Below the pieces are notes generated by a model. That model did no database searches. It had not been told where the DNA came from and saw only the letters and a list, made by a program, of their open reading frames with translations. This document shows, piece after piece, positions 21,107-41,008 of a DNA stretch of 41,358 bases. Positions within the stretch are counted from its first letter, which is position 1; each line of letters starts with the position of its first letter. Both the position numbers and the translations under genes were made by a program. Origin of the DNA: Candidatus Coprenecus stercoravium. GTDB taxonomy: Bacteria > Bacteroidota > Bacteroidia > Bacteroidales > UBA932. The stretch lies in assembly GCA_019116865.1 (NCBI GenBank), contig DXAW01000043.1, positions 1 through 41,358 on the forward strand, read 5' to 3'.

Positions 21107-21649
21107 ATGGATGATAACAGCCAGAAGCTATGGTTTGTAATGCGCGTCACCTACCAGCGGGAAGTGGCCGCTAAAGAGAAGCTCGACACTCTGGGACTGG
21201 AATGCTTTCTGCCGGTCAGAACATTCAGAAAACGCGGGACCGACGGCAGATTCTGCAAGGTCAGGGAGCCGCTTATCCACAATTACATTTTCATCCATTC
21301 AGACAAACAGACTATCGACAGGCTGAAAACTTTCACGCTCCCCTACCTGAGATACGCCACGTCCACTATAGACGGACAGAAGGTAATAATGACTGTCCCG
21401 GAGCGTCAGATGAAAAGTTTTATAGCCGTAGCCGGAAATGAGGAGCAGCGCGCTGTTTTTCTTGACCCGGCCACCATCGACCTCACGAAAGGAGACAAGG
21501 TACGGATTACCGGAGGACCGTTTGAGGGCGTCGAAGGCACATTCATGAGGCTTCAGGGAGGCCGCGGCAAAAGGGTGGTCGTAAAAATAGACTCCATAGC
21601 CGCTGTCGCAACCACCGAACTTCAGCCTCATCTCGTCACCAAGATATGA
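21107..21649 (+). CDS. UpxY-family NusG-like transcription antiterminator
   Basis: 180 aa; [34 protein letters not shown] and KOW-like [33 protein letters not shown]; first gene of the polysaccharide cluster. Confidence 0.9.
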
Positions 21650-22956
21650 GAAAACACAAAATAGCCGTAGCAGGCACCGGATATGTGGGCCTGAGTCTTG
21701 CGACCCTGCTCGCACAGCACCATCACGTGACAGCCGTGGACGTCATCCCTGAGAAAGTGGACCTGCTCAACAGACGAAAGTCCCCCATTCAGGACGAATA
21801 TATAGAAAGATACCTGACAGAGAAACCGCTGGACCTGACGGCCACAGTGGACGGCCGGAAGGCTTATGCCGATGCGGAGCTTGTCATAGTAGCGGCTCCC
21901 ACCAACTACGACCCGGTCAAGAACTACTTCGACACCACGCACGTCGAGGAAGTCATAGACCTGGTGCTCGATGTCAATCCGGACGCTGTTATCGTCATCA
22001 AGTCCACAATCCCTGTAGGATACTGCCGCAGTCTGTACGTCAAGTACTGGAAACAGGGGCTGAAAAGTCTACGTCTGCTGTTCGCCCCGGAATTCCTGCG
22101 CGAGAGCAAGGCCCTATATGACAACCTCTACCCCAGCCGTATCATTGTCGGCATTCCGAAACTTCTCCCCGGAGATGAGTTCTCTGACGAAAACGAGGCA
22201 ATCAAGGCCCTGGCCGACATACCGTTTTTGGAGAAAGCCGCGCATGAGTTCTCCGCAATGCTACAGGAAGGAGCGATAAAGCAGGACATCCCTACCCTGT
22301 TCATGGGCCTGAAAGAAGCGGAGGCCGTCAAGCTGTTCGCCAACACATATCTGGCTCTTCGAGTCAGTTACTTCAACGAGCTGGACACATACGCCGAGGT
22401 CAAGGGGCTTGACTCGGCAGCCATCATTCAGGGCGTGGGGCTGGACCCCAGAATCGGCACCCACTACAACAACCCGTCGTTCGGCTACGGCGGCTACTGT
22501 CTGCCAAAGGACACCAAGCAGCTGCTGGCCAACTACGAGAACGTACCCCAGAACATGATGACCGCCATCGTCGAGAGCAACCGCACCCGAAAGGACTTCA
22601 TCGCCGGACAGGTACTCAAAATGGCCGGAGCCCATGAGTACGACGGAAGCTGGGACGCATCCAAAGAGCACGAGACGGTAATCGGAGTCTACCGCCTTAC
22701 AATGAAAATCGGCAGCGACAACTTCCGTCAGAGCAGCATTCAGGGCGTGATGAAGCGAATCAAGGCCAAGGGTGTCACGCTGATTATCTACGAGCCTGCA
22801 CTGGAAGACGGCAGCACCTTCTTCGGCAGCCGTGTCGTCAACGACCTGACCGAATTCAAACGCCGCTCGCAGGCCATCATCGCCAACCGCTACGACTCCT
22901 GCCTCGACGACGTCAAGACTAAAGTCTACACCCGCGACCTCTTCCACCGTGACTGA
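21646..22956 (+). CDS. UDP-glucose 6-dehydrogenase family
   Basis: 436 aa; [75 protein letters not shown]-type active site ([16 protein letters not shown]). Overlaps upxY by 4 nt. Confidence 0.92.
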
Positions 22957-22992
22957 AACAATTAAATATCGAATATATACTTTAAATATTTT

Positions 22993-23958
22993 ATGAAAAA
23001 TTTTGCATTAATCGGAGCTGCCGGGTATATTGCGCCACGTCATCTTAGAGCGATTAAAGATACCGGTAACAATTTAATTGCTGCATACGATAAGTTTGAC
23101 AGCGTCGGTATCATGGACAGTTATTTCCCGGAAGCATCATTTTTTACAGAGAATGAGCAGTTTGACAGATATCTCTCCAAGATAAAAGGAACTGATAACC
23201 AGATAGACTGGCTGTCGATATGTACGCCAAATCATACTCACGATGCGTTTATAAGGTACGGCCTCAGACTTGGCACGGATGTAATCTGCGAGAAACCGGT
23301 TGTCCTGAATCCTTATAACATAGATGAATTGATGAAAGTTGAGGAAGAGACCGGACATAAGGCATACAATATTCTTCAGCTCAGACTGCATGATTCTATA
23401 GTCGCATTAAAGAAAAAAATAGATGAAGGCCCTGAAAATAAGATTTATGATGTGGATTTGACATACATCACATCACGTGGAAAATGGTACTATGCCAGTT
23501 GGAAGGGAGATGTTCATAAAAGCGGAGGTGTCGCGACAAATATCGGAGTTCACTTCTATGATATGCTGCAGTGGATATTTGGGCCCGTACAGGAAAACAT
23601 CGTACACGTAATGAGTCATGACAGAGTTGCGGGATTTTTGGGACTGAAAAAAGCAAGGGTGCGTTATTTCTTGAGCATCAACGCTGACAATCTTCCTGAG
23701 AACGCAGTACAGGGAGAAAAGAGAACATACCGCACAATTATGATTGACGGAGATGAATTCGAGTTCAGCAAAGGATTTACAGAACTGCACACCAAGAGCT
23801 ATCAGGAGATTCTCGCAGGACGCGGATTCAGAATATCAGAAGCGCGGAACTGCATACAGATAGTAAGTGACATCCGGCATTCTACTCCTATAGGACTTAA
23901 GGGAGATTATCATCCTCTTGCAAAACTTCCTTTGGCAAAACATCCTTTCGGTTGGTAA
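22993..23958 (+). CDS. Gfo/Idh/MocA oxidoreductase, WbpB/WlbA-like (UDP-GlcNAcA 3-dehydrogenase)
   Basis: 321 aa; FALIGAAGYIAPRHLRAIKDTGNNLIAAYD, DWLSICTPNHTHDAFIRYGLRLGTDVICEKPVVLN; genomic neighbours are WbpE- and WbpD-like. Confidence 0.88.
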   Translation: MKNFALIGAAGYIAPRHLRAIKDTGNNLIAAYDKFDSVGIMDSYFPEASFFTENEQFDRYLSKIKGTDNQIDWLSICTPNHTHDAFIRYGLRLGTDVICEKPVVLNPYNIDELMKVEEETGHKAYNILQLRLHDSIVALKKKIDEGPENKIYDVDLTYITSRGKWYYASWKGDVHKSGGVATNIGVHFYDMLQWIFGPVQENIVHVMSHDRVAGFLGLKKARVRYFLSINADNLPENAVQGEKRTYRTIMIDGDEFEFSKGFTELHTKSYQEILAGRGFRISEARNCIQIVSDIRHSTPIGLKGDYHPLAKLPLAKHPFGW

Positions 23959-23967
23959 TATGATAAA

Positions 23968-25098
23968 ATGAATATGAAACTACAGATGGTGGATCTTCAC
24001 GGGCAGTACATGAAGATCAAAGATGAGGTGGATGCCGGTATCCGTCAGGTGATAGAAAGCTCGGCTTTTATCAACGGTCCTCAAGTAAAGGAATTTGCCG
24101 GCAAACTGGCGGATTACGTTCACTGCAAGTACGTAATAACATGCGGAAACGGTACGGATGCGCTGCAGATAGCCCTAATGGCTCTTGACCTGAAACCCGG
24201 AGACGAGGTGATAGTACCGGCTTTCACGTACGTGGCCTCGGCGGAAGTTATCGGACTGCTCGGACTTACTCCGGTTATGGTGGACGTTGATTACAACACT
24301 TTCAATGTAACCCTAAAGAACATAGAGAAGGCGTTAAGTCCTAAGACAAAAGCCATTATTCCGGTGCATCTTTTCGGGCAGTCATGCGACATGGCACCTA
24401 TTATGGAATTTGCAAATAGACATAAACTCTATGTTGTAGAAGACAATGCACAGGCAATCGGGGCACGCTATACTTTCCCGGACGGTTCCGCCAAATTCAC
24501 CGGCACAATCGGTCACATCGGATGTACCTCCTTCTTCCCTTCCAAGAATTTAGGATGCTATGGAGACGGAGGCGCCATATTTACAGATGATGATGTTCTT
24601 GGAGAGCGTCTTAAAATGATTGCCAATCATGGACAGCAGGTTAAATATCACCACAAGGTTATAGGCTGCAACTCCAGACTGGACACCATTCAGGCAGTTG
24701 TGCTGAACGCAAAACTTCCTCACTTGAATGAATATTGTAGATCACGCTATGCTGCAGCGCAATATTATACTTCGGCCCTGAAAGACATTGATGGTATCAT
24801 CACGCCTGTTGAGCAGCCGAACAGTACTCATGTCTACCACCAGTACACATTGAAAGTCCTCAACGGGAAACGCAATGCTCTTAAACAATATATGGCTGAC
24901 AACGGGATACCAAGTATGATTTACTATCCGCTTCCCCTTCAGCAACAGGAAGCCTTCAGTAACATTACACGTGCGGCAGAAAGTCTTGACACCGCAGCAG
25001 AGCTGGCGGCCTCAGTTCTTTCGCTGCCAATCCATACTGAGATAAGCCATGAACAACAAGACATGGTGATCGATGCGATTAAAAGTTTTTTCAAATAA
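23968..25098 (+). CDS. DegT/DnrJ/EryC1 PLP aminotransferase, WbpE/WlbC-like
   Basis: 376 aa; [80 protein letters not shown]. Confidence 0.92.
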
Positions 25099-25106
25099 AA
25101 TTAATA

Positions 25107-25682
25107 ATGGCAGAATATTTTGCACATGAGACAGCAGTCGTGGATGACGGCTGCGTAATAGGAGCAGGCACTAAAATCTGGCATTTTACACATATTATGG
25201 CCGGTTGCAGGATAGGAAAAAAGTGCAATATCGGGCAGAACGTCGTTATTTCACCGGATGTGGTTCTAGGCAATAACGTTAAAATACAAAACAACGTATC
25301 AGTATATACAGGTGTGACCTGTGATGACGATGTATTCCTCGGGCCTTCATGTGTGTTTACCAATGTAATAAATCCACGAAGCGCAGTAAACCGCAAGTCA
25401 GAGTATGCAAAAACCCATGTTGGACGTGGCGCGACTATAGGCGCAAATGCCACCATTGTCTGTGGGCATGACATCGGTGAATATGCCTTTATCGGAGCCG
25501 GCGCTGTAGTCACCAAAACAGTTGCACCATATGCTTTAATGGTCGGGAACCCTGCCCGGCAAACCGGCTGGATGAGTGAATTCGGATGTAAACTGAGGTT
25601 CGATGCAGACGGATTCGCCACCTGCCCTCAGAGTGGAGATAAATATCAACTTAAAAATGGAATAGTAAATAAACTTAAATAA
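25107..25682 (+). CDS. Left-handed beta-helix N-acetyltransferase, WbpD-like
   Basis: 191 aa; hexapeptide repeats ([57 protein letters not shown]). Confidence 0.91.
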
Positions 25683-25698
25683 TCAAAAATTTAGAATT

Positions 25699-26994
25699 AT
25701 GGACATGTACAACAGACTCGTAAATAAAGAGGCAAAGCTGGCGCTGGTCGGCCTCGGATATGTAGGACTCCCTATCGCACTGGAGTTCGCAAAGAAGATA
25801 TCGGTTATCGGTTTTGATATCAATGAGGCACGCCTGGCTAAAATGAGACAGGGCATTGACCCCTGCGGCGAGCTTGATTCTTCAGCATTTGAGAATGTTG
25901 ATATAGAATTCACATCCTCCATCGACAAACTGCGTGAGGCCTCTTTCTTCATTGTAGCGGTGCCTACGCCTATCGATAAGTACAACAAGCCCGACCTTAC
26001 CCCCCTGCTTGGAGCTTCCAGGTCCGTAGGAAAGGCCCTTAAACCCGGAGACTATGTCGTATATGAGTCCACAGTGTATCCGGGATGTACGGAAGAAGAC
26101 TGCCTGCCTATATTGGAAGAGGTAAGCGGTCTCAAAGCATATAAACAGTTCAAATTCGGATATTCTCCTGAGCGGATCAATCCGGGTGAAAAAGTACATA
26201 CGCTGCCAAATACTGTAAAAATCGTATCAGGATGCGACCCGGAAGCACTTGATGTTATTGCAAAAGTCTATGAACTGGTCGTTAAGCCCGGTGTGCACCG
26301 TGCCCCGAACGTAAAAGTAGCCGAGGCTGCAAAGATTATTGAGAACACTCAGAGGGACGTCAATATCGCTCTGATGAACGAACTGTCCATCATATTCAGC
26401 CGCATCGGTATCAACACCTACGATGTACTGGAGGCAGCCGGCACAAAATGGAACTTCTTGAAATTCTATCCCGGTCTTGTCGGCGGCCACTGTATCGGAG
26501 TCGATCCTTACTATTTGGTGCACAAGGCCAGCGAGCTGAAATATCACTGCCAGATAATCAGTGCCGGACGGTTCATCAACGACAGCATGGGCGGATACAT
26601 CGCCAAAAAGCTAGTAAAAAGGCTCATTTCATTGGGAAAGGGAGTGCTCGGTGCCCGCATCCTGGTAATGGGCGTTACCTTCAAGGAAAATGTCTCTGAC
26701 ATCCGCAACTCAAAGGTAGTGGACATCATCAACGAACTCAAGGACTTCGGCTGCGACGTGGATGTCATGGACCCTCATGCGGACAGTGACGAGGTCATGC
26801 ACGAGTACGGCTTCCGGCTTGTCGAGAAACCCCGTGACAGTTATGATGGCGTAGTAGTAGCCGTGGCCCATGACCAATACAAGGACCTTACCGAGGACTA
26901 CTTCAAGTCACTTACATACGAGCATGCAGTGCTTGTAGACATTAAAGGTATGTACCGCGGCAAGATACATTCGCTCAAGTACTGGAGCCTGTAA
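25699..26994 (+). CDS. UDP-N-acetylhexosamine 6-dehydrogenase, WbpA/WbpO/TviB family
   Basis: 431 aa; LALVGLGYVGLPIALEFAKKISVIGFDI, VYESTVYPGCTEEDCLPILEE, FKFGYSPERINPGEK, LVGGHCIGVDPYYLVHKA. Confidence 0.92.
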   Translation: MDMYNRLVNKEAKLALVGLGYVGLPIALEFAKKISVIGFDINEARLAKMRQGIDPCGELDSSAFENVDIEFTSSIDKLREASFFIVAVPTPIDKYNKPDLTPLLGASRSVGKALKPGDYVVYESTVYPGCTEEDCLPILEEVSGLKAYKQFKFGYSPERINPGEKVHTLPNTVKIVSGCDPEALDVIAKVYELVVKPGVHRAPNVKVAEAAKIIENTQRDVNIALMNELSIIFSRIGINTYDVLEAAGTKWNFLKFYPGLVGGHCIGVDPYYLVHKASELKYHCQIISAGRFINDSMGGYIAKKLVKRLISLGKGVLGARILVMGVTFKENVSDIRNSKVVDIINELKDFGCDVDVMDPHADSDEVMHEYGFRLVEKPRDSYDGVVVAVAHDQYKDLTEDYFKSLTYEHAVLVDIKGMYRGKIHSLKYWSL

Positions 26995-27010
26995 ATTTTA
27001 CCAACGACTA

Positions 27011-27041
27011 AGAAGTCATACTTACGGACAGTATGACTTCT
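27011..27041 (+). terminator. Perfect intraoperonic stem-loop, possible attenuator/terminator
   Basis: AGAAGTCATACT (27011-27022), loop TACGGAC, AGTATGACTTCT (27030-27041), followed by T-rich ATTTATTTATCTT. Confidence 0.5.
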
Positions 27042-27056
27042 ATTTATTTATCTTCA

Positions 27057-28181: not shown

Positions 28182-29520
28182 AACATCAAAAATTTTCAAT
28201 GTAATATCATTCTCATACCTGGCGTATGTGGTAATACTATTTTATGTTGCAATACAGTATTTCCCGACTGCCTTCAAAACCAGTTATAACGGGTTGCTAT
28301 TTCCGGCCGAACTGAATTTATTCCGTCTTATAACATCCATTATTCTTTGTCTGATTCTGTTACTTATAATAAGGCGACGTTATTGCAAACCGAAAAAAGT
28401 ATCAGAAATGACAGTCTTATTACTTCTTATCCTTTATTTTATTCCAGGTCTGGTTATTTATAGCGTCACAACAATAAGCAATGTATATTATTTCGCATAT
28501 ATTGTTTTTATGGCAATGATGCTCATATCTGACCGTATAGTCAGGCGTCCCAAAGTCGGAATCCATATTAAAGGGATAAACAATAACATTGTCTTAAAAG
28601 TTCTGATAGCGGTCAGTCTGTTAACCACGGTCTATTTATCATTTGTATTCAAACAAGTATTTTCCTTTTCAAAATTACTGATAGTTCTCACTGATGTATA
28701 TGAGACAAGAGCCACCGCACTGCAGGTACACTGGCTGATCATCACATTACAACAATGGGCCGTTTACTTTTGTGCATTTATGATTACATATTCGCTGCTA
28801 AATAAAAAATACCTGCTCACTGTCGTTTTTATTTTCTGTGAATTATTTTTCTTTATACTGCAAGGGAACCGCATAGGCCTATTCGTTACCGTATTGGCTA
28901 TTGTCTTTGGATGTTTTAAAAATATAAGTCCAAAAATAGTTTCTATTGGAACATTAAGTATTATTGTACTGATTTTAATCGAGTGCATCATATGGGAGAA
29001 CGGTGGGATAATCACTAACATCTTCAGAAGATTCAGCATTGTTCCTAACAGAATTGCATACCATTATTTTGATTTTTTTCAATCCAACACTCCTGACCTA
29101 CTTCGTTCCACATTCCCAAGAATCTCAGAGACAATGCTTGGATTACCGTCACCATACGCCAACATCGCTCACACAATTGGAGAGACATACTTTCACGCCG
29201 AAATGGGCGCAAATACCGGAATGATGGGCTCCGCAATGTTTACTTTCGGCATCTTCGGATTGGTAATCGAACCGATTTGCATCGTACTATTCACACGTAT
29301 ATTGGACAAATGCACGATGCACATAACCAATAAATCCTTGCTGTTTTCCATCGCCGCGGTATTCTGCTCATTACTTATAAACGCACCAAACGCCCTTGCC
29401 AACTGTCTTAGTCTATCCTACTACCTACTTTTGATCCTATCCCTATTATTTGTCACTCTTGACAAGAACAATGACAATTCAATAAAAGCCAAAACGACTG
29501 CCATACTACCCTCGTTATGA
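28165..29520 (+). CDS. O-antigen/capsule polymerase, Wzy-like
   Basis: 451 aa polytopic membrane protein in a GT/Wzx neighbourhood; no Wzy-wide sequence motif, so call rests on topology and context. Confidence 0.65.
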   Translation: MLRSNKTSKIFNVISFSYLAYVVILFYVAIQYFPTAFKTSYNGLLFPAELNLFRLITSIILCLILLLIIRRRYCKPKKVSEMTVLLLLILYFIPGLVIYSVTTISNVYYFAYIVFMAMMLISDRIVRRPKVGIHIKGINNNIVLKVLIAVSLLTTVYLSFVFKQVFSFSKLLIVLTDVYETRATALQVHWLIITLQQWAVYFCAFMITYSLLNKKYLLTVVFIFCELFFFILQGNRIGLFVTVLAIVFGCFKNISPKIVSIGTLSIIVLILIECIIWENGGIITNIFRRFSIVPNRIAYHYFDFFQSNTPDLLRSTFPRISETMLGLPSPYANIAHTIGETYFHAEMGANTGMMGSAMFTFGIFGLVIEPICIVLFTRILDKCTMHITNKSLLFSIAAVFCSLLINAPNALANCLSLSYYLLLILSLLFVTLDKNNDNSIKAKTTAILPSL

Positions 29521-30602
29521 AAATCCTGTATATCACATATATCGACTTAAATGCTCCTCAAACCTCCGGATCCAGTGTAAGACCGAACAAAATGCTTCAC
29601 GCATTTCTTGAATCGGGGCATACAGTTAAGCTTTTAAGCGGCAGTACAGAATATATACATAGAACACAACGCAAACATTCCATAAAAGAGATTCTTTCAT
29701 GGCTAGAAAACGAAACGCCTGATATATGCTATATTGAATCCAGTACCTATCCAATAATATTCCATGCAGACAGGAAACTTATCAAGCGAATACATAAGCT
29801 AGGCATCCCCATTGGATATTTCTACCGTGATTTCTACAGAAAATTCCCCAAGCTGTTTCCTCGGAGAAAAGGGTTTGTTAATTTCATTAAAGAATCATTT
29901 CTAAATATCCTACAATATAAAACAGACAAAATACTGAATTATGCAGATATAATATACCTGCCGAGCATTCAAGCAAAACGTCTGTTCGATTATAAGGATA
30001 TGAGAGCGCTGCCTCCCGCCGGTGACAACAAATTAATACCACACCCCTATAATAAAACGATAATCTACGTAGGCGGCATATCAAAGCACTATGGCGGAGA
30101 TTTGTTGATAGAAGCATTCAAATTACTGAACAGTGATGCATCCGAATATAAGCTAATGCTTGTATGCCGTGAAAATGAATGGAGCAAAGTGCCGGAAGAG
30201 GATAAGCATTATCCATGGTTACAATGCTTTCATGCATCAGGAGAAGCACTCGCACAATTATACGCAGCAGCAGCAGCAGCAATCATAACAAAACCGGACA
30301 ATGAGTATAACAACCTTGCAATATCCGTGAAACTCTTCGAATACATGAGTTATGGCCTACCTGTCATATCTACTGATAATGATGCCATGTCCGATATTAT
30401 AAGGCATTACGGACTTGGACTCATCGCTTCGTCAGCAGAAGAATTAGCGGATGCAGTCAAATCGATGCTTAACAATAAGGACCTCTACGACAATTTCTGC
30501 CAAAACACTGCAACTGCTCTAAATAACAATAATTTATGGGCCAACAGGGCAGAACAGGTTGTTAAGGATCTGAGCGCACTTAAATCTAACAAACAGCATT
30601 GA
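29517..30602 (+). CDS. Glycosyltransferase, GT4-like
   Basis: 361 aa; KILYITYIDLNAPQTSGSSVRPNKMLHAFLESGHTVKLLSG, IIYVGGISKHYGGDLLIEAFKLL, ISVKLFEYMSYGLPVISTDNDAMSDII. Confidence 0.85.
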   Translation: MKILYITYIDLNAPQTSGSSVRPNKMLHAFLESGHTVKLLSGSTEYIHRTQRKHSIKEILSWLENETPDICYIESSTYPIIFHADRKLIKRIHKLGIPIGYFYRDFYRKFPKLFPRRKGFVNFIKESFLNILQYKTDKILNYADIIYLPSIQAKRLFDYKDMRALPPAGDNKLIPHPYNKTIIYVGGISKHYGGDLLIEAFKLLNSDASEYKLMLVCRENEWSKVPEEDKHYPWLQCFHASGEALAQLYAAAAAAIITKPDNEYNNLAISVKLFEYMSYGLPVISTDNDAMSDIIRHYGLGLIASSAEELADAVKSMLNNKDLYDNFCQNTATALNNNNLWANRAEQVVKDLSALKSNKQH

Positions 30603-31903
30603 CGCCTATATCAAAACAGATGTCAAACATTTGCGCAAGAATAGCATCTCTGCTGAAAAACGGATTTGGCCACGTATTCATCGGTACCTTCCTGAACAAA
30701 GGTATTGCGATGATATCATCCGTAATCGTCGCAAGGATTATTGACAAGACAGAATACGCATACCTAAGTTATTCTGAAACACTTTACGGTTATTTAATTT
30801 TATTCGCCGGATTAGGTATGTCTTCCGGACTGTTGAAAGTATGCTCCGGAAAAACGGCAGGACCACAAGACAAAGCATATCTATCTTATGCCGCAAAATG
30901 GGGCGCCGGCTTTGAGGCATTAATCACAATATGTCTCATCATAATATGCTTAGCCGTGACGCTACCCTTTCCAGAAGCCAGATTCTATATCATTTCCACC
31001 GCTTTGTATCCGGCTGTTTATTCCATATATGACACTCTTGTCTGCTATATCAGGGCAAAACAAAAAAACATACTATTTGCCCGACTCAATGTTCTATACT
31101 CCCTATTGACATGCGTATTCAGCATTATTCTGGTTCTTTGGATCAATGCTATCGGTATAGTCATTGCACGGTATCTCGTTTTAATTTGCGTTGGTGCCAT
31201 TGCGTTGTTCTCCATTAAAAACTCTTTCACCACTCAAGACTGCTCCACCATCAGCAAATCCGAGAAACGCTCATTTTGGATTATGTCCTTATCGTTGATG
31301 GCCGCCAATATTTTCTCAGGAATGATGCCGTTCAACGAAAACCTTCTAATTAGTAATCTTATTGCCGACGAAGTTACAACTGCAAATTTCAGAGTGGCCA
31401 GTCTGTTTCCTCAATTGCTGCTCTTGGTATCGCAGGCTCTCATGATTTACTTCTTTCCCATTGTGTCAGAAATGGACAATCATGGAGCAGACACTGTAAC
31501 AATAAAAAAATACATCATTAAAATCGGCATCCTTAATTTTGTATTGGTTATTTTCTCTTTACTAATCGGTATTGTGCTGACACCATTTCTTATATCTTTT
31601 TTCTATACTCAGAAATATGCTGACGCTATCCCTATCGCTTACTTATTATGGATAATGCGAGGGATAAACGCAGCGATAAGAATTGTTCCAATGAATATGC
31701 TTATAGCAGTCAGGGCTTACAAGTTTAATTTAATTATGTCTGCCTTCTCAGCGTTTATCCAACTATTGCTGGACTGGTATTTCATAAAACATTTTGGAAT
31801 AGTCGGAGTAGCCTATGGGACAATTGCCGTTTATCTGATAAGCGGTATCATCTACTGGGTATTCCTACTCAACCGTCTAAAAACAAACAAAACTCTTTTA
31901 TGA
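30599..31903 (+). CDS. Polysaccharide flippase, Wzx/MATE-like
   Basis: 434 aa polytopic; FIGTFLNKGIAMISSVIVARIIDKTEYAYLSYSETLYGYLILFAGLGMSSGLLK. Confidence 0.85.
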   Translation: MTPISKQMSNICARIASLLKNGFGHVFIGTFLNKGIAMISSVIVARIIDKTEYAYLSYSETLYGYLILFAGLGMSSGLLKVCSGKTAGPQDKAYLSYAAKWGAGFEALITICLIIICLAVTLPFPEARFYIISTALYPAVYSIYDTLVCYIRAKQKNILFARLNVLYSLLTCVFSIILVLWINAIGIVIARYLVLICVGAIALFSIKNSFTTQDCSTISKSEKRSFWIMSLSLMAANIFSGMMPFNENLLISNLIADEVTTANFRVASLFPQLLLLVSQALMIYFFPIVSEMDNHGADTVTIKKYIIKIGILNFVLVIFSLLIGIVLTPFLISFFYTQKYADAIPIAYLLWIMRGINAAIRIVPMNMLIAVRAYKFNLIMSAFSAFIQLLLDWYFIKHFGIVGVAYGTIAVYLISGIIYWVFLLNRLKTNKTLL

Positions 31904-32886
31904 ATAAATTATGTAAAAAGGTCTTAAAAAAGCCTTATACTTACTTAATGTTCTGCAAAAACACCATTAAAGGCGCATACTGTCAATTCATCACGAAGCA
32001 TTTTCCCCAATTGAACGCCATGACCGAGATGAAACGCCAAAAACAAACCGAACTTCTACGACCGGTGAATATAAAAGAACCGATTTATTTTAATGAGAAA
32101 ATGCTTTGGTTGAAATACTATTTATATAATCAGAGTCCCGTCGTCGCACAATGCTACAACAAATATACAGTAAGAAAATACGTAGAAAGCAAAGGCCTCG
32201 GCTATATCCTCAATGATTTATATGGTGTCTGGAATAATATTGATGACATCCCGTGGACAAATCTTCCTGAAGAATTTGTCATCAAACTCTCCAACGGTTA
32301 CTATGGCCATGTATTTAAACATAAAGATAATGAACTCGATATTGCCGCCGCAAAAAAGACTTTGGAAGACACACGGCGACGCTGTAAATACGCATTTAAA
32401 ATATCCGGTGACTTATTTGCATATGGAACAACTCCTGTATATATATGCGAACGCCTTCTGCACTCTGATTATGGCTATTCTTCTCCTGAGGACTATAAAT
32501 TCTATTGTTTCAATGGCGTTCCGGTTCTATTAAATTATTTTGTAAATCGCAGATATGTTAATGGGCAAATGTCCTATGATATGGTCCATCTTGACTTGAG
32601 GAATTTCTCTTTCAGACCAGACATAGAACTCGGCTGCTCTGAGAATGTCAAAGAATTTCCTAAAAGTCTTAATCAAATGATAGAAATAGCAAAAATCCTT
32701 TCTCGGGACTTTCCATTTGTCAGAGTTGACCTATACGAGGAAAACGGCAAGCCTGTTTTTGGAGAACTTACATTTACACCATACCATTCACAAACCAAGA
32801 CGTCCCTTATCGAATTAGGGAATCTGCTAGATCTCAGCAATATAGATAAATATTACAAAATTCTTTTACCTGATACTACTGCATAA
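31900..32886 (+). CDS. TupA-like ATP-grasp protein
   Basis: 328 aa; MLWLKYYLYNQSPVVAQCYNKYTVRKYVESKGLGYILNDLYGVWNNIDDIPWTNLPEEFVIKLSNGYYGHVF, FPFVRVDLYEENGKPVFGELTFTPYH. Confidence 0.82.
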   Translation: MNKLCKKVLKKPYTYLMFCKNTIKGAYCQFITKHFPQLNAMTEMKRQKQTELLRPVNIKEPIYFNEKMLWLKYYLYNQSPVVAQCYNKYTVRKYVESKGLGYILNDLYGVWNNIDDIPWTNLPEEFVIKLSNGYYGHVFKHKDNELDIAAAKKTLEDTRRRCKYAFKISGDLFAYGTTPVYICERLLHSDYGYSSPEDYKFYCFNGVPVLLNYFVNRRYVNGQMSYDMVHLDLRNFSFRPDIELGCSENVKEFPKSLNQMIEIAKILSRDFPFVRVDLYEENGKPVFGELTFTPYHSQTKTSLIELGNLLDLSNIDKYYKILLPDTTA

Positions 32887-34028
32887 TGCATATTCTTTTT
32901 GTCACACGGGGTTGTCGTTCTCAAGCCTACCCTCTTTTAGGTATTTTTGAGACGGACCAAGCCAAGGCTCTTTGTTCGCTTGGTCTCAAAATCTCCTATC
33001 TGGCAATTGATCTGCGCTCCATACGCAGACGTAGAAAATTAGGATACCATTTCTATAATAAAGATGGCTTTGATGTATTTGAATTGTCATTACCTATAGG
33101 AGCTGTCCCAATAAAGCTGTTTACATTCATCGGACGCCTATGCGCCCTTTTCCTATATCGTAAAGTCGTAAAAAAGAATGGCGTCCCTGACATAATACAC
33201 TCTCATTTTGCCAATATAGGAACCATAGCGTCTGTTTTAAAACGTAAATACAATGTCCCTTTAGTCCATACCGAACACTCTTCTGAAATTATATACAACA
33301 AGATAGACTCGATAAAGAAAAGACTTTATGGTAAAGTCTATACAGATGCCGATGCTGTTATCGCCGTCTCTCCTGCTCTCCAAAAAGCATTGAGGGACAC
33401 TTTTAAAGTTGATGCCTTGATGATTTTCAACATCATTGACTTTAATACTTTTACCAATATCAGAAATATCAACGGCAACAATACTTTCACTTTCGTATCT
33501 GTTGGAGGTCTCATTTATAGAAAAGGTTTTGATTTACTGATTACCGCTTTCGCTGAATTAAGTAAAGATATAAACGCCAACCTGGTAATAGTAGGTCAAG
33601 GCCCATTACTGCCATCACTTCAAGACCTCAGCCGCGAATTGAATGTCGCAGACAAAATCATATTCACCGGGAATATGGACAGAGAGAGTATTGCAGCGAT
33701 AATGAGTAAGTCACAAGCCTTCGTCCTTGCATCCAGAGGAGAAACCTTCGGTGTCGTATATGCTGAAGCAATGGCCGCCGGCCTGCCTGTAATCGCCACA
33801 AAATGTGGCGGTCCTGAATCGTTTGTGAATAGCGGCAATGGCATCTTGGCTCCTACAGACAATATTCAAGGACTCGTAAAAGCAATGAAATACATATACA
33901 ATAACATTGGGCAATATGATAGTATGAAATTAAGAAATCAGGCCTATCTTATGTTTTCCTATCAGAGTATCGGACAAAAAATCATCAATCTATACAAAAC
34001 TATCATAAATCATAATATGACAAAATGA
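32886..34028 (+). CDS. Glycosyltransferase family 4
   Basis: 380 aa; DIIHSHFANIGTIASVLKRKYNVPLVHTEHSSE, FVSVGGLIYRKGFDLLITAFAEL, GETFGVVYAEAMAAGLPVIATKCGGPESFV. Confidence 0.92.
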   Translation: MHILFVTRGCRSQAYPLLGIFETDQAKALCSLGLKISYLAIDLRSIRRRRKLGYHFYNKDGFDVFELSLPIGAVPIKLFTFIGRLCALFLYRKVVKKNGVPDIIHSHFANIGTIASVLKRKYNVPLVHTEHSSEIIYNKIDSIKKRLYGKVYTDADAVIAVSPALQKALRDTFKVDALMIFNIIDFNTFTNIRNINGNNTFTFVSVGGLIYRKGFDLLITAFAELSKDINANLVIVGQGPLLPSLQDLSRELNVADKIIFTGNMDRESIAAIMSKSQAFVLASRGETFGVVYAEAMAAGLPVIATKCGGPESFVNSGNGILAPTDNIQGLVKAMKYIYNNIGQYDSMKLRNQAYLMFSYQSIGQKIINLYKTIINHNMTK

Positions 34029-35251
34029 AAATACTGCTGATTAATCATTATGCCGGAGCTCCGGAACTGGGTATGGAGTTCCGGCCATTCTATATGGCCA
34101 AGGAATGGGGAAAACTTGGACATGAGACTCTTATCATCGGAGGCAGTTTTTCTCATCTGAGACGAAGACAGCCGTCAGATGATGAAAGGGTTATAGATGG
34201 AGTGCATTATTCCTGGGTTAAGGTGAACAAATATGCCGGAAATGGTATAGGAAGAATCATTTCGATATTCCTTTTTATTCTTAAGTTATTTTTTAGATTC
34301 CGACATTACTTGGGAGATTTTCAGCCTGACATAGTTATCGCTTCTTCTACCTACCCCATGGACATCTATCCTGCACGAAAGATTGCAAGACATTATCATG
34401 CCAAGTTGATATATGAGGTTCATGACTTATGGCCTCTGTCTCCGATGGAGTTGGGCGGCTATTCAAAGAATCATCCTTTTATCAGAGTTGTGCAACGTGC
34501 GGAGAATTACTGCTACCGTCATGCAGATGCTGTAGTATCCATGTTGCCTGCAGCAGAGCAGCACATGATTGAACATGGGTTGGAAAAAGGTAAATTTAAT
34601 TATGTGCCGAATGGCATAGACCTGACAGAATGGAATACTTCAGATGATATAGACAATCCGTACGCAGAGGACTTACAAAAATTCAAGGACGATGGTTGCT
34701 TCATTTTATGTTATACAGGAGGTCATGCCATATCCAATGCTTTGGACGTTCTTTTAGATGCATTAAAAATAATTGCAGATACAGATATTAAATGTCTGCT
34801 AGTCGGTAATGGACAAGAAAAATTACGTTTAATGAAACGTGTGGAACAAGAAGGGATAAGGAATGTGTTTTTTTATAATCCGGTTCCTAAAAGCAAAATA
34901 CCACCGTTACTCAAATCAGTAGATGCGCTGTATATCGGATGGCATAAAAGCCCACTTTATCAATATGGCATTTCACCTAATAAATTATTGGATTATATGA
35001 TGGCCGGCAAACCAATCATTCACTCTGTATGCGCAGCAAATGATTGGGTAAAAGATGCAGAATGCGGAATCTCAGTTGACGTTGAAAATCCGCAAGCTAT
35101 CAGTGATGCCATAATAGCACTTAAAAACATGCCTGAAATAGATAGGGAGAGACTTGGAGAAAATGGACGTAGATACGTTCTTGCAAATCACACGTATGGA
35201 GTTCTAGCAAAGCGTTTTGCAGATGTAATGACAAATATTCTGAAGAAATGA
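34025..35251 (+). CDS. Glycosyltransferase family 4 (WbuB-like)
   Basis: 408 aa; KILLINHYAGAPELGMEFRPFYMAKEWGKLGHETLIIGGSFSH, IYEVHDLWPLSPMELGGYSKNHPFI, SPNKLLDYMMAGKPIIHSV. Confidence 0.92.
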   Translation: MKILLINHYAGAPELGMEFRPFYMAKEWGKLGHETLIIGGSFSHLRRRQPSDDERVIDGVHYSWVKVNKYAGNGIGRIISIFLFILKLFFRFRHYLGDFQPDIVIASSTYPMDIYPARKIARHYHAKLIYEVHDLWPLSPMELGGYSKNHPFIRVVQRAENYCYRHADAVVSMLPAAEQHMIEHGLEKGKFNYVPNGIDLTEWNTSDDIDNPYAEDLQKFKDDGCFILCYTGGHAISNALDVLLDALKIIADTDIKCLLVGNGQEKLRLMKRVEQEGIRNVFFYNPVPKSKIPPLLKSVDALYIGWHKSPLYQYGISPNKLLDYMMAGKPIIHSVCAANDWVKDAECGISVDVENPQAISDAIIALKNMPEIDRERLGENGRRYVLANHTYGVLAKRFADVMTNILKK

Positions 35252-36318
35252 AAATAGTAACAGTTATCGGGGCGCGTCCCCAGTTCATCAAGGCAGCTGT
35301 AGTAAGCAGAGCGATAGCTGCGCATAAGGATATCAAGGAAGTGATTGTCCACACCGGGCAGCACTTCGATGCCAATATGAGCGACATCTTTTTCGAGGAG
35401 ATGTGCATTCCGAAGCCGGACTACAACCTGAATATAAACGGTCTCGGCCACGGTGCCATGACCGGACAGATGCTGGAGAAGATAGAGACGGTGCTTCTTC
35501 AGGAAAAGCCGGATTGGGTTCTGGTGTACGGAGATACGAACTCGACCATCGCAGGAGCACTTGCCGCAAAGAAGCTCCACATCAAGGTGGCCCATGTGGA
35601 GGCAGGACTCCGCTCATTCAACATGGACATGCCCGAGGAGATAAACAGAATCCTTACAGACCGCATCAGCGACATACTTTTCTGCCCGACAGAGACAGCT
35701 GTGAATAACTTGAAAAAGGAGGGCTATGAGAATATAAACTGCCGGATAATCCGCAATGGCGATGTGATGCAGGATGCCGCTTTGTTTTATGCTGGCAGAG
35801 CAGTGCGTCCCAAAACTGACATACCTGAAGACTTTGTACTGTGTACAGTTCACCGTGCCGAGAACACCGATGATCCGGAACGCCTCAGGAACATTTTCTC
35901 CGCCCTTGAGGAGATATCAAAAACCTGCCGGGTAGTCTTGCCTCTGCATCCCAGAACTAAAGGCAAACTCTCCGCCATCGGATACGACACCAACAACTCG
36001 CACATACTCTTCATCGAACCGGTCGGCTATCTTGAAATGGTATGGATGCTCAAGCACTGCCGCCTGGTCATGACCGACAGCGGCGGACTGCAAAAAGAAG
36101 CCTACTTCTTCGACAAATACTGCATAACCTTAAGGGATGAAACGGAATGGGTGGAATTGGTTAAATACGGATACAATTTTCTGGCAGGAGATGATAAGGG
36201 AAAAATTATTTCACTTTACAACCATATATCGGATAAAAACAATATAGAACAAAAAACACCGTTATATGGGAATGGAAATGCAGGCGATTTAATCGTTGAA
36301 ACATTAAGAAATTACTAA
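35248..36318 (+). CDS. UDP-HexNAc 2-epimerase, WecB/WbpI family
   Basis: 356 aa; KIVTVIGARPQFIKAAVVSRAI, VHTGQHFDANMSDIFFEEM, VLVYGDTNSTIAGALAAKKLHIKVAHVEAGLRSFNMDMPEEINR, MTDSGGLQKEAYF. Confidence 0.94.
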   Translation: MKIVTVIGARPQFIKAAVVSRAIAAHKDIKEVIVHTGQHFDANMSDIFFEEMCIPKPDYNLNINGLGHGAMTGQMLEKIETVLLQEKPDWVLVYGDTNSTIAGALAAKKLHIKVAHVEAGLRSFNMDMPEEINRILTDRISDILFCPTETAVNNLKKEGYENINCRIIRNGDVMQDAALFYAGRAVRPKTDIPEDFVLCTVHRAENTDDPERLRNIFSALEEISKTCRVVLPLHPRTKGKLSAIGYDTNNSHILFIEPVGYLEMVWMLKHCRLVMTDSGGLQKEAYFFDKYCITLRDETEWVELVKYGYNFLAGDDKGKIISLYNHISDKNNIEQKTPLYGNGNAGDLIVETLRNY

Positions 36319-39195
36319 ATGTCCATTGTTGATTCATTGCATATTGACGGTGATATTCATGAAGACCGCCATTATCGTATCATATATGCTACGGACGCAT
36401 CAGCATATCGTGAGATGCCGGATGCTGTGGCATTCCCGAAGCATGAGGAGGACATCAAGGCGCTTGTACGATATGCATCCGGGAATCATCTGAATCTGAT
36501 ACCGCGTGCGGCAGGGACATCTCTTGCCGGACAGGTAGTGGGTAAGGGTATTGTCGTAGATGTTTCCAGGTACATGAACAATATCCTGGAGATAAATCCT
36601 GAACAGCGGTGGGTAAGGGTACAGCCGGGTGTGGTGCTGGACGAACTGAACGAATATTGCAGCCACTACGGCCTGTTCTTTGCCCCTGAGACATCCACGT
36701 CCAGCAGATGTTGTATTGGAGGCATGGCCGGCAATAATTCATGCGGCTCGCACTCCCTGGTGTATGGAAGTACTAGAGACCATGTAATTGAAGCCAGGGT
36801 CGTACTCAGTGATGGCTCGACGGCAGTTTTCGGTCCTCTTTCAGATAATGAGTTGGAGAATAAATGCAGCGGGGATACATTGGAAGGCCGGATATATATG
36901 GAGATGCTGGCGATGCTTAATGATGAGGGCAATAGAAAAGACATTAAGGATAATTTCCCGGAACCTTCTATACGGCGCAGAAATTCTGGATATGCGATAG
37001 ATGAGCTGTTGAACAGCAGACCCTTTAATTTCTGTAAACTGATAATCGGCTCCGAAGGGACATTAGCCTTTATTACGGAACTTAAACTTCACCTTGAGCC
37101 GTTGCCGCCGAAAGAAAAGGCAGTGGTCTGTGTGCACTGTGCAAGTCTCGAAGAGGCATGTAATGCGAATTTGGCAGCACTGAAGCATGAACCGCGGGCC
37201 ATAGAGCTTATGGACGATCAGGTCCTCCAACTGAGTAAGAAAAACATTGCCCAGAATAAGAACCGCTTCTTTATCCAAGGAGATCCGGCAGCAATCCTTA
37301 TAGTAGAGATAGCAAAGGACTCATTGGATGAAGTGAACCATGAGGCTGATCTTTTGGAGAATGATTTGAGGAGACAAAACTTAGGATATCATTACTCGAG
37401 AGTCTATGGAAAAGACATCAGCAGAGTATGGGCTCTTAGAAAAGCCGGCCTTGGTTTGTTGTCAGGAATGCCGGGCAGTGCGAAACCAGTGTCGTTGATT
37501 GAGGATACGGCTATTAATCCTGAAAAACTGTTCGCTTTCCTGACCGACTTGAAAGTTGTACTCGACAGTTACGGACTTAGTTGTGTTTATCATGGCCATA
37601 TCAGTACCGGAGAATTGCATCTGAGACCTATTCTCAATCTGAAGGAAGAACATGACAGACGGCTTTTCAGAGTAGTGGCTACTGAAACGGCACGGTTGGT
37701 TAAAAAGTACCGTGGTTCGCTGAGCGGAGAGCACGGTGACGGAAGACTGAGGGGAGAATTTTTGCCATTGATGTTTGGAAAGAAAGTATATGCCCTGTTC
37801 AAGAATGTAAAGCATATTTGGGATGAGAACGGGATATTCAATATGGGGAAGATAGTCGATACTCCGCCGATGGATTCTTGCCTTAGATATGAGGTCTGCC
37901 ATGGTATTGAAAATACCTATTTCGATTTTTCAAGACAAAAAGGATATTTGTGTGCTGTCGAGCAGTGCAACGGCTCAGGAGACTGCAGGAAGTCCTATCT
38001 GTTCGGAGGAACTATGTGTCCTGTCTACAGGGCTACACGAGATGAGAAAAATTCCACAAGAGCGAGGTCGAACATACTCCGTGAACTACTAATTCATCCG
38101 GAAGGAAACAAGATGTTCAGCCAGCCGGAAGTGCTGTCGGCGCTTGATTCCTGTTTGTCCTGCAAGGCATGCAAAGCGGAATGTCCGTCCAATGTGGATA
38201 TGGCCAGATATAAGGCAGAGTACCTGCAGCATCATTATGATGAGACCAGCATCCCGTTGCGCAGTTTCCTTATCGCCAATCTGACCAGGATACAGAAGAT
38301 AGCAATGGCATTCCCTGCTGCGTACAATGCGGTAGTGTCCTCAAAAATATTTTCCTCTATTTTAAAAAAGGTACTGCGGTTCGCACCTCAAAGAGCCATC
38401 CCGAAGATTTACAGATTTACTTTAAAGCATTGGCTAAGAACGCATCCTGATAGCACCTCTTACGACCGTAAAGTTTATCTGTTTGCTGACGAGTTTTCCA
38501 ATTACATGGATGTGGAAATCGGTATCACCTTTATCAAGCTGTTGAGAGCACTGGGATATCAAGTAACAATACCGGAGCATGTAGAGAGCGGCAGGACAGA
38601 ACTTTCCAAGGGACTGGTGAAAAAGGCTAAAAAGATTGCCCGCAAAAATGTCATGTTTCTCAAAGACATTGTGAACGAGCAGATACCGCTTGTAGGAATA
38701 GAGCCTTCGTGTATACTGTCTTTCAGGGATGAGTATCCTGATCTGGTAGGGGAAGACTTAAAGGAGACGGCTGTATCATTGGCCCGTAACTGCCTGCTTT
38801 ACGATGAGTTCATAGTCCGTGAAGTACAGAAAGGGAATATAACGTCAGAACAGTTTATTGCCAAGGAACAAAAAATAAAACTGCACGGGCACTGTCATCA
38901 GAAAGCCCTGATATCTATAGAGCCTTCAAAGAAAATGTTGTCTTTACCGGCAAATTATCATGTGGAAGTTATACCGTCAGGATGCTGCGGCATGGCCGGA
39001 GCATTCGGCTATGAAAAGGAACATTACAGCTTGTCTATGCAGATTGGAGAGCAGGTTCTTTTCACAGCCGTGCGTTCGGCTGTCCAAGGAACATTGATTG
39101 CAGCACCGGGCACAAGTTGCCGTCAGCAGATAATGGACGGGACCGGCGTTAAGGCATATCACCCTATCGAGATTCTATATCAAGCACTAATTTAA
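36319..39195 (+). CDS. FAD-binding and 4Fe-4S-binding oxidase, GlcD/GlpC-like fusion (YdiJ-type)
   Basis: 958 aa; PRAAGTSLAGQVVGKGIVVDVSRYMN, GSEGTLAFITELKLHLEPLP, GEHGDGRLRGEFLPLMFG, CLSCKACKAECPSNVDMARYKAE, SGCCGMAGAFGYEKEHYSLS. Confidence 0.9.
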   Translation: MSIVDSLHIDGDIHEDRHYRIIYATDASAYREMPDAVAFPKHEEDIKALVRYASGNHLNLIPRAAGTSLAGQVVGKGIVVDVSRYMNNILEINPEQRWVRVQPGVVLDELNEYCSHYGLFFAPETSTSSRCCIGGMAGNNSCGSHSLVYGSTRDHVIEARVVLSDGSTAVFGPLSDNELENKCSGDTLEGRIYMEMLAMLNDEGNRKDIKDNFPEPSIRRRNSGYAIDELLNSRPFNFCKLIIGSEGTLAFITELKLHLEPLPPKEKAVVCVHCASLEEACNANLAALKHEPRAIELMDDQVLQLSKKNIAQNKNRFFIQGDPAAILIVEIAKDSLDEVNHEADLLENDLRRQNLGYHYSRVYGKDISRVWALRKAGLGLLSGMPGSAKPVSLIEDTAINPEKLFAFLTDLKVVLDSYGLSCVYHGHISTGELHLRPILNLKEEHDRRLFRVVATETARLVKKYRGSLSGEHGDGRLRGEFLPLMFGKKVYALFKNVKHIWDENGIFNMGKIVDTPPMDSCLRYEVCHGIENTYFDFSRQKGYLCAVEQCNGSGDCRKSYLFGGTMCPVYRATRDEKNSTRARSNILRELLIHPEGNKMFSQPEVLSALDSCLSCKACKAECPSNVDMARYKAEYLQHHYDETSIPLRSFLIANLTRIQKIAMAFPAAYNAVVSSKIFSSILKKVLRFAPQRAIPKIYRFTLKHWLRTHPDSTSYDRKVYLFADEFSNYMDVEIGITFIKLLRALGYQVTIPEHVESGRTELSKGLVKKAKKIARKNVMFLKDIVNEQIPLVGIEPSCILSFRDEYPDLVGEDLKETAVSLARNCLLYDEFIVREVQKGNITSEQFIAKEQKIKLHGHCHQKALISIEPSKKMLSLPANYHVEVIPSGCCGMAGAFGYEKEHYSLSMQIGEQVLFTAVRSAVQGTLIAAPGTSCRQQIMDGTGVKAYHPIEILYQALI

Positions 39196-39212
39196 TAAAA
39201 AGTATTCTCTAT

Positions 39213-40421
39213 ATGCGTAAAATACCTTTTTCGCCTCCAGATATGACGGAGGCCGAGTTCGCGATGGTAAAAGAAGTACTGGCTTCTGGATGGATTACCA
39301 CCGGACCGAAAACTAAGGAATTTGAACATCTGATAGCGACCTATTGCAATACACAACAAGCTGTATGTCTCAATTCTGCCACTGCTTGCATGGAGATGGC
39401 GCTGCGGGTGCTGGGCATAGGTACTGGTGACGAAGTAATCGTACCGGCCTATACCTATACGGCTACGGCCAGTTCAGTGTGCCATGTGGGTGCAAGACCT
39501 GTGATGGTGGATTGTACTCCTGGGAGTTATGAGATGGATTACACCAAAGTAGCAGAAGCGATAAATGAAAAAACCAAGGCAGTGATGCCGGTGGATCTTG
39601 GCGGAGTGGTTTGTGACTACGACAGGATATATGAGGCGGTCGAGTCTAAAAAAGCACTCTTCAGACCGGCGAATGATATCCAGAAGGCATACGGAAGGCC
39701 AGCGGTGATAGCCGATGCAGCCCATGCTTTCGGGGCCAGGCGGCACGGGAAGATGTGCGGTTCGATAGCAGACTTTACCTCGTTCTCGTTCCATGCGGTG
39801 AAGAATCTGACTACGACTGAGGGTGGGGCGCTGACATGGCGCTCTCATGAAGGACTGGACGACGACGCGGTCTATAAGCAGATTCAGTTGCTGTCGCTGC
39901 ACGGTCAGAGCAAGGATGCGCTGGCCAAGACTCAGCTAGGTGCCTGGGAGTACGACATCGTCGCGCCGTACTACAAGTGCAACATGACAGACATCATGGC
40001 CGGTATCGGTCTAGCTCAATTCAAAAGATACCCGGAACTGCTGCACCGCCGCCGTCAGATTATTGAGGCGTATAATAAAAGATTACATGACTACGATGTG
40101 AATGTATTGAATCATTTCGGACCGAATCATTCATCCTCCGGGCACTTGTATTTGGTGCGTCTCCTCGGCAAGGATGTGGACTACCGAAACGATGTGATAG
40201 TCAGGATGGCCGAGCGCGGCATCGCCTGCAACGTGCACTATAAGCCGCTTCCGATGATGACAGCCTACAAGGACCTCGGCTACGACATCAAATATTTTCC
40301 CAATGCCTACGACCAGTACCGCTGCGAGGTAACACTCCCGCTGCACACCCATCTGAACGACGAAGACGTGCAGTATGTCATGGACAATTTTACAGACATA
40401 ATCTCAACACTAAAAAGGTGA
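39213..40421 (+). CDS. Second DegT/DnrJ/EryC1 aminotransferase
   Basis: 402 aa; [89 protein letters not shown]. Confidence 0.92.
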   Translation: MRKIPFSPPDMTEAEFAMVKEVLASGWITTGPKTKEFEHLIATYCNTQQAVCLNSATACMEMALRVLGIGTGDEVIVPAYTYTATASSVCHVGARPVMVDCTPGSYEMDYTKVAEAINEKTKAVMPVDLGGVVCDYDRIYEAVESKKALFRPANDIQKAYGRPAVIADAAHAFGARRHGKMCGSIADFTSFSFHAVKNLTTTEGGALTWRSHEGLDDDAVYKQIQLLSLHGQSKDALAKTQLGAWEYDIVAPYYKCNMTDIMAGIGLAQFKRYPELLHRRRQIIEAYNKRLHDYDVNVLNHFGPNHSSSGHLYLVRLLGKDVDYRNDVIVRMAERGIACNVHYKPLPMMTAYKDLGYDIKYFPNAYDQYRCEVTLPLHTHLNDEDVQYVMDNFTDIISTLKR

Positions 40422-41008
40422 AACGGATTTTCGACATCATAATTAGCGGATTAGGACTACTTATTCTTAGTCCGCTTTTTTTAATTCTTGCTATTTGGAT
40501 TAAATACGACTCTCCTGGACCTGTTTTCTATCGTCAAACCAGAGTCGGAAAAAACAACAAAGACTTTCGTATATTCAAATTCCGGTCTATGAAAATTGGC
40601 TCTGACAAATTGGGTCTAATCACTGTCGGCGGCCACGATCCACGAGTAACAACGTCGGGATATTACATAAGAAAATACAAACTTGATGAACTACCACAAC
40701 TCATAAACGTATTCATCGGTGATATGAGCCTGGTGGGTCCCAGACCTGAAGTTCGTAAATATGTTGACATGTATAACTCCGAACAACTTCACGTCCTAGA
40801 CGTCCGTCCCGGTATTACCGACATGGCTTCAATCCGATATAGAAATGAAAATGAGATTCTTGAGCAAGCAAAGAATCCCGAAAAATACTACTGCGATGTC
40901 ATCATGCAAGACAAACTTCGCATCAATCTTGAATACGTATCCCACCACACATTCTTAGGAGACATAAAAATTATAGTGCAAACTCTGAAAACAATAATCA
41001 CAAAATAA
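40418..41008 (+). CDS. Initiating phosphoglycosyl transferase, PglC/WcaJ catalytic-domain type
   Basis: 196 aa; KRIFDIIISGLGLLILSPLFLILAIWIKYDSPGPVFYRQTRVGKNNKDFRIFKFRSM, KYKLDELPQLINVFIGDMSLVGPRPEV, RPGITDMASIRY. Confidence 0.93.
   Translation: MKRIFDIIISGLGLLILSPLFLILAIWIKYDSPGPVFYRQTRVGKNNKDFRIFKFRSMKIGSDKLGLITVGGHDPRVTTSGYYIRKYKLDELPQLINVFIGDMSLVGPRPEVRKYVDMYNSEQLHVLDVRPGITDMASIRYRNENEILEQAKNPEKYYCDVIMQDKLRINLEYVSHHTFLGDIKIIVQTLKTIITK

Follow-up and report, generated by a model that had tools for sequence, protein, structure and literature searches.

The gene at 36319-39195 of the window, the whole 41,358-nucleotide stretch of Candidatus Coprenecus stercoravium DNA analyzed here, very probably encodes a YdiJ-type D-2-hydroxyglutarate (D-2-HG) dehydrogenase serving the WbpB step of its own polysaccharide locus. 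In the mechanism we propose, WbpB would oxidize UDP-GlcNAcA at C3 with a tightly bound NAD and would re-oxidize the NADH by reducing 2-ketoglutarate to D-2-HG, a reaction shown in P. aeruginosa and expected here from the 57% identity of the two WbpB proteins. The 958-aa protein would then use its FAD domain to return D-2-HG to 2-ketoglutarate, and the electrons would leave through the 4Fe-4S region and the GlpC-like part, with menaquinone as the probable membrane acceptor. As a net result, a product that inhibits WbpB would be cleared, 2-ketoglutarate regained, and sugar oxidation tied to the membrane electron chain. It is well supported that this finding represents a new version of a known coupling. 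The production of D-2-HG by WbpB and the support of O-antigen by a D-2-HG dehydrogenase are already known from P. aeruginosa, a member of another phylum; the new part is the YdiJ-type version inside Bacteroidales sugar loci and its WbpB-specific co-occurrence.

The chemistry on which this proposal builds has been described in several bacteria. WbpB of P. aeruginosa holds its NADH tightly and converts 2-ketoglutarate by reduction to D-2-HG, which in turn inhibits the enzyme, and deletion of PA0317, which encodes a D-2-HG dehydrogenase, leads to less O-antigen (PMC8651671). Of the acids assayed, the YdiJ proteins of E. coli and P. ananatis accept D-2-HG alone, and in E. coli the enzyme handles D-2-HG derived from SerA (PMC9504171). 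Both premises of the first-pass annotation, that P. aeruginosa WbpB uses alpha-ketoglutarate and yields 2-HG and that YdiJ is linked to D-2-HG oxidation, agree with these studies, the former for the D enantiomer (PMC8651671) and the latter for the E. coli and P. ananatis enzymes (PMC9504171). A further enzyme, HglS (DUF1338), converts 2-oxoadipate to D-2-HG (PMC7286885). The YdiJ type and the D2HGDH type are weakly related, at about 23-25% identity. Our literature search found no paper on WbpB together with Bacteroidales FAD proteins and none on an operon-embedded D-2-HG dehydrogenase.

As contig C28, the window belongs to a 1.83-Mb genome, 82% complete, with its nearest relatives among the Bacteroidales. 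Genes on one strand form a block from 21107 to 41008, opened by a UpxY antiterminator of the kind that marks capsule loci in Bacteroidales. Its relevant features, and the domains of the YdiJ-type protein, are as follows.

21107..21649, + strand: UpxY-family antiterminator, first gene of the locus (NF033644, above cut-off)
21646..22956, + strand: Ugd, UDP-glucose 6-dehydrogenase-like
22993..23958, + strand: WbpB-type UDP-GlcNAcA 3-dehydrogenase, 57% identical to P. aeruginosa WbpB, proposed D-2-HG source
23968..25098, + strand: WbpE-like DegT aminotransferase, presumably converting glutamate to 2-ketoglutarate
25107..25682, + strand: WbpD-like hexapeptide N-acetyltransferase
25699..26994, + strand: TviB/WbpA/WbpO-like UDP-HexNAc 6-dehydrogenase
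35248..36318, + strand: WbpI/WecB-type UDP-GlcNAc 2-epimerase, directly upstream of the YdiJ-type gene (TIGR00236, above cut-off)
36319..39195, + strand: YdiJ-type FAD/4Fe-4S fusion oxidoreductase, 958 aa, proposed D-2-HG dehydrogenase
36418..36822, + strand: its FAD_binding_4 domain (residues 34-168, Pfam E 1.5e-40)
37108..37854, + strand: its FAD-oxidase_C substrate domain (residues 264-512, Pfam E 4e-41)
37957..38196, + strand: its Fer4_8 dicluster region (residues 547-626, Pfam E 2.4e-8)
38122..39189, + strand: its GlpC-like C-terminal part (residues 602-957, NF008369 at 221 bits, below the 278 cut-off), the proposed electron exit toward the quinone pool
39213..40421, + strand: second DegT aminotransferase, PseC-like
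40418..41008, + strand: initiating sugar-phosphate transferase (Bac_transf)

Pfam, NCBIfam and PDB matches confirmed the WbpA/O-, WbpB-, WbpE-, WbpD- and WbpI/WecB-like genes that the first-pass annotation had read in this cluster, and the 6-dehydrogenase, WbpB, WbpE, WbpD and WbpI of the UDP-ManNAc3NAcA pathway are all encoded together; we infer that UDP-ManNAc3NAcA is the exact sugar. The product of 22993-23958 resembles WbpB over its full length in preference to other Gfo/Idh proteins (best PDB match 3oa2, P. aeruginosa WbpB, E 1e-113; best non-WbpB match, 1e-12). The locus also holds glycosyltransferases, a TupA-like ATP-grasp protein (31900-32886) and, judged by eye, a putative polymerase and flippase among its membrane proteins. 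The position of the PseC-like DegT gene (39213-40421) beside the initiating transferase hints that an amino sugar is the first residue of the repeat. WbpB and the YdiJ-type gene lie 12.4 kb apart. An inverted repeat with 12-bp arms and a T-rich tail (27011-27041), possibly a terminator or a recombination site, separates the 6-dehydrogenase gene from the glycosyltransferase gene that follows; it also falls between WbpB and the YdiJ-type gene, and we count both this repeat and the 12.4-kb distance against their coupling. Scanning for promoters and terminators gave counts near those of shuffled sequence.

The YdiJ-type gene has an intact reading frame with an ATG start and, as the first-pass annotation had noted, abuts the 2-epimerase gene: the TAA stop of the latter ends at 36318 and the ATG begins at the very next base. 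The protein has the complete YdiJ architecture over its full length (FAD_binding_4, FAD-oxidase_C, 4Fe-4S and GlpC-like parts) and aligns collinearly with E. coli YdiJ from end to end. Its best NCBIfam match is NF049975 YdiJ, at 658 bits under an equivalog cut-off of 1350 bits, and by sequence we regard it as a YdiJ-type homologue outside the curated equivalog. The initial reading of a YdiJ-like FAD/Fe-S protein thus stands on the intact frame, the Pfam domains, the NF049975 match and this collinearity. We found a single YdiJ-type copy in the genome, as represented in the 82% complete assembly.

Residues R374, K389, H427, H434, R436, E471 and H472 of the FAD-oxidase_C domain are invariant in a 14-row alignment (A2) that includes E. 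coli YdiJ, with which the window protein shares these active-site residues. Five of them, R374, H427, H434, E471 and H472, correspond to R386, H434, H441, E475 and H476 of human D2HGDH. R436 occupies the position of human Asn443, a distal-carboxylate ligand, and this position is uncharged in solved D-lactate dehydrogenase (D-LDH) and glycolate-oxidase-type sequences. Nothing corresponds directly to Lys401, which binds the C5 carboxylate in the human enzyme, the register inferred through 3pm9 placing I394 there in the window protein and alanine in E. coli YdiJ; in place of the Lys401/Asn443 ligands of canonical D2HGDH (the human and PA0317 type), the window protein thus has I394 and R436. This residue pattern would fit a dicarboxylic substrate, and might also occur in a D-lactate enzyme of this architecture. 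On a model whose active-site loops are weak, fold comparison ranks solved D-lactate dehydrogenases closest and D2HGDH after them; we count this ranking, and the missing Lys401 counterpart, against the D-2-HG assignment.

We then asked whether WbpB and YdiJ are physically linked elsewhere. A WbpB-alignment scan yielded 80 loci, which are the nearest WbpB relatives rather than a random draw and are Bacteroidales wherever the record was named to that level. In at least 17 of the 80, a YdiJ-like gene lay on the WbpB strand at a distance of 10 kb or less; the true number may be higher, as several contigs were short. Gene order varied among linked loci (WbpB-WbpE-WbpI-YdiJ, WbpI-YdiJ, WbpB-YdiJ, YdiJ-WbpB and WbpE-YdiJ-WbpD); Sanguibacteroides has WbpB-YdiJ, with a YdiJ 66% identical to the window protein, and the window's family includes four genomes in which YdiJ directly follows WbpD, with WbpB elsewhere in the genome. 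We also analyzed a sample of 295 Bacteroidales genomes chosen regardless of linkage, in 113 of which both genes could be placed. Besides the window, six genomes from three families carried WbpB and YdiJ 51-988 bp apart on one strand; by an arithmetic estimate, about 0.03 pairs within 1 kb would be expected by chance. At 20 kb the raw count was modest, with 6 pairs observed besides the window versus 1.4 expected. Taken over the whole set, chance linkage was rejected on the gaps below 1 kb on one strand plus co-occurrence, and not on the 20-kb count alone.

In most WbpB genomes YdiJ sits away from WbpB. When the order sample was searched with a wbp-linked YdiJ, G245, the window and G224 ranked first, all in or next to wbp genes, and a phylogenetic tree joined 17 wbp-linked rows and two others in one group of 19, with support of 96/88; because linked rows were mostly gathered via WbpB, the tree speaks to clustering and not to frequency. 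One wbp-linked pair (L036/L037) falls outside this group. Within about 8 kb each way of 20 YdiJ loci outside the wbp-linked clade, WbpB, WbpD, WbpE or WbpI was found in 0/20. Three further features of these loci deserve mention: in family f79, a FemAB/GNAT-like gene between WbpB and YdiJ (L038, 9489-10412), the same two genes being separated by an equally large gap in L039 and L040; in genus g3 of the family to which the window belongs, two tandem WbpB genes that share about 61-67% identity with the window WbpB (L052, 8772-10764; L169, 8841-10844); and, outside any wbp locus, a YdiJ-type protein of 1055 aa, which exceeds its relatives by about 100 aa (L161, 7699-10866).

Presence of the two genes was associated genome-wide. 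YdiJ occurred in 156/177 genomes with WbpB and 36/118 without it (295 Bacteroidales; OR 17, p = 9e-25), and in a subset with essentially one genome per family (G001-G119) the counts were 65/75 and 13/44 (OR 15.5, p = 3e-10); these statistics are uncorrected for the species tree, and genome incompleteness may by itself raise the correlation somewhat. Among genomes with a UDP-HexNAc 6-dehydrogenase, YdiJ was present in 136/151 with WbpB versus 17/48 without (OR 16.5), and in WbpB-less genomes the 6-dehydrogenase showed no link to YdiJ (p = 0.42). Since the 6-dehydrogenase fails to predict YdiJ in the absence of WbpB, the association belongs to WbpB and not to this class of sugar locus. The co-occurrence beyond chance in polysaccharide loci that the first-pass annotation had called for was therefore seen both as gene linkage and, with this pathway-gene control, as genome-wide presence.

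In the window's own family (60 genomes), YdiJ was found in 9/60 and WbpB in 19/60, with both in 7 (p = 0.003); YdiJ was absent from the two other genomes sampled in the window's genus. Across the order sample, 21/177 WbpB genomes had no YdiJ, and we found no recurrent candidate for a substitute D-2-HG oxidase among the neighbors of WbpB in YdiJ-lacking genomes. Such genomes include G126, G338, G008, G001, G290, G101, G286, G120, G218 and G122 (L043-L051, L162). Given these genomes, with no substitute near WbpB, the recycling enzyme is either helpful rather than obligatory or replaced by something else.

Beside YdiJ copies unlinked to wbp genes we identified another gene, that for HglS (PF07063). 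HglS was present in 61/295 Bacteroidales genomes, 61/61 of which also encoded YdiJ, and in 26 genomes it lay within 1.6 kb of YdiJ on the same strand. A Paraburkholderia plasmid also carries a DUF1338 gene directly 5′ of an FAD/Fe-S fusion that is a distant relative. HglS was seen together with WbpB in no fetched locus and was not found in the window's genome. This independent second partner points to D-2-HG as the substrate, and the pairing of one enzyme with two unrelated D-2-HG producers is the strongest substrate argument. A same-strand set of LplA (lipoate-protein ligase), HglS and YdiJ-type genes recurs in Bacteroidales (L210, L211, L214, L215 and L217) and is also present in L009, L015, L021, L022, L023 and L028, which suggests a 2-oxoadipate/lysine catabolic cassette.

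These partners bear directly on other possible roles of the protein. It could be a D-lactate dehydrogenase (or one for glycolate or another 2-hydroxyacid), similar to Shewanella Dld-II, that came to lie in polysaccharide loci by happenstance. We take Dld-II to share the domain architecture of the window protein, and both the nearest solved folds and the PDB sequence matches are D-lactate/glycolate enzymes; however, no lactate-utilization gene was recognized among the recurrent neighbors of 29 YdiJ copies, the recurring partners are the D-2-HG producers WbpB and HglS, and we know of no D-lactate step in a UDP-ManNAc3NAcA-type pathway. On balance, we consider this role quite unlikely. A general D-2-HG dehydrogenase for SerA in serine synthesis, placed in the sugar operon incidentally, would resemble E. 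coli YdiJ, which serves SerA-derived D-2-HG (PMC9504171), and the window's genome does contain a short SerA-like gene. Yet almost every genome of the family (59/60) has SerA-like genes, while YdiJ is rare there (9/60) and tracks WbpB, so serine synthesis fails to explain the YdiJ distribution; together with the repeated linkage of YdiJ to wbp genes in different orders, this makes such a role very improbable.

The position of the gene inside the locus, beside sugar enzymes, would also suit a flavoenzyme that modifies the UDP-sugar or polysaccharide directly rather than D-2-HG, and related VAO-family enzymes such as DprE1, among the weak PDB matches, do use sugars. We find this barely credible, as the same family adjoins HglS outside any sugar locus and the protein has the His/His/Glu metal site and the Arg that are conserved in 2-hydroxyacid dehydrogenases. 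The 2-HG recycling by a YdiJ-type enzyme that the first-pass annotation had suggested is thus favored by the linkage, the WbpB-specific co-occurrence and the HglS pairing. It is a role that we infer from sequence, at 30% identity to a characterized YdiJ and with some WbpB genomes lacking YdiJ.

If the D-2-HG assignment is correct, WbpB-dependent sugar synthesis in Bacteroidales gains a likely partner enzyme that accounts for the fate of D-2-HG, and a widespread Bacteroidales "FAD-binding and (Fe-S)-binding" protein gains a probable substrate. The two unrelated partners suggest a rule: where a YdiJ-type protein is found, a D-2-HG producer should be sought. D-2-HG is a host-active metabolite, which makes bacteria that produce and clear it of wider interest. 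Tentatively, and with some doubt, we further propose a dedicated Bacteroidales YdiJ-type clade in diaminouronate loci, in which a 2-ketoglutarate/D-2-HG shuttle feeds electrons from sugar oxidation to anaerobic respiration; if true, surface-polysaccharide synthesis would contribute electrons to that respiration.

Known systems share parts of this arrangement. The E. coli and P. ananatis YdiJ proteins have the FAD domain, 4Fe-4S and GlpC-like part and the invariant active-site residues in common with the window protein, which is shorter than E. coli YdiJ (958 versus 1018 aa) and 30% identical to it; E. coli ydiJ adjoins menI and ydiK, whereas the window gene lies inside a sugar locus. GlcDEF, Dld-II and anaerobic GlpC systems likewise couple a flavin hydroxyacid dehydrogenase to a CCG/Fe-S electron exit but act on different substrates, and solved D-LDH/glycolate-oxidase-type sequences are uncharged where the window protein has R436. 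HglS and YdiJ-type pairs place the same enzyme family beside a D-2-HG producer, as in the window, although there the producer is an oxygenase of 2-oxoadipate (lysine) catabolism and the context is not a sugar locus. Finally, P. aeruginosa WbpB and PA0317 follow the logic proposed here, the dehydrogenase giving 2-ketoglutarate back; however, PA0317 is a short D2HGDH-type enzyme not described within the wbp cluster, whereas the window enzyme is a YdiJ-type Fe-S fusion encoded inside the locus.
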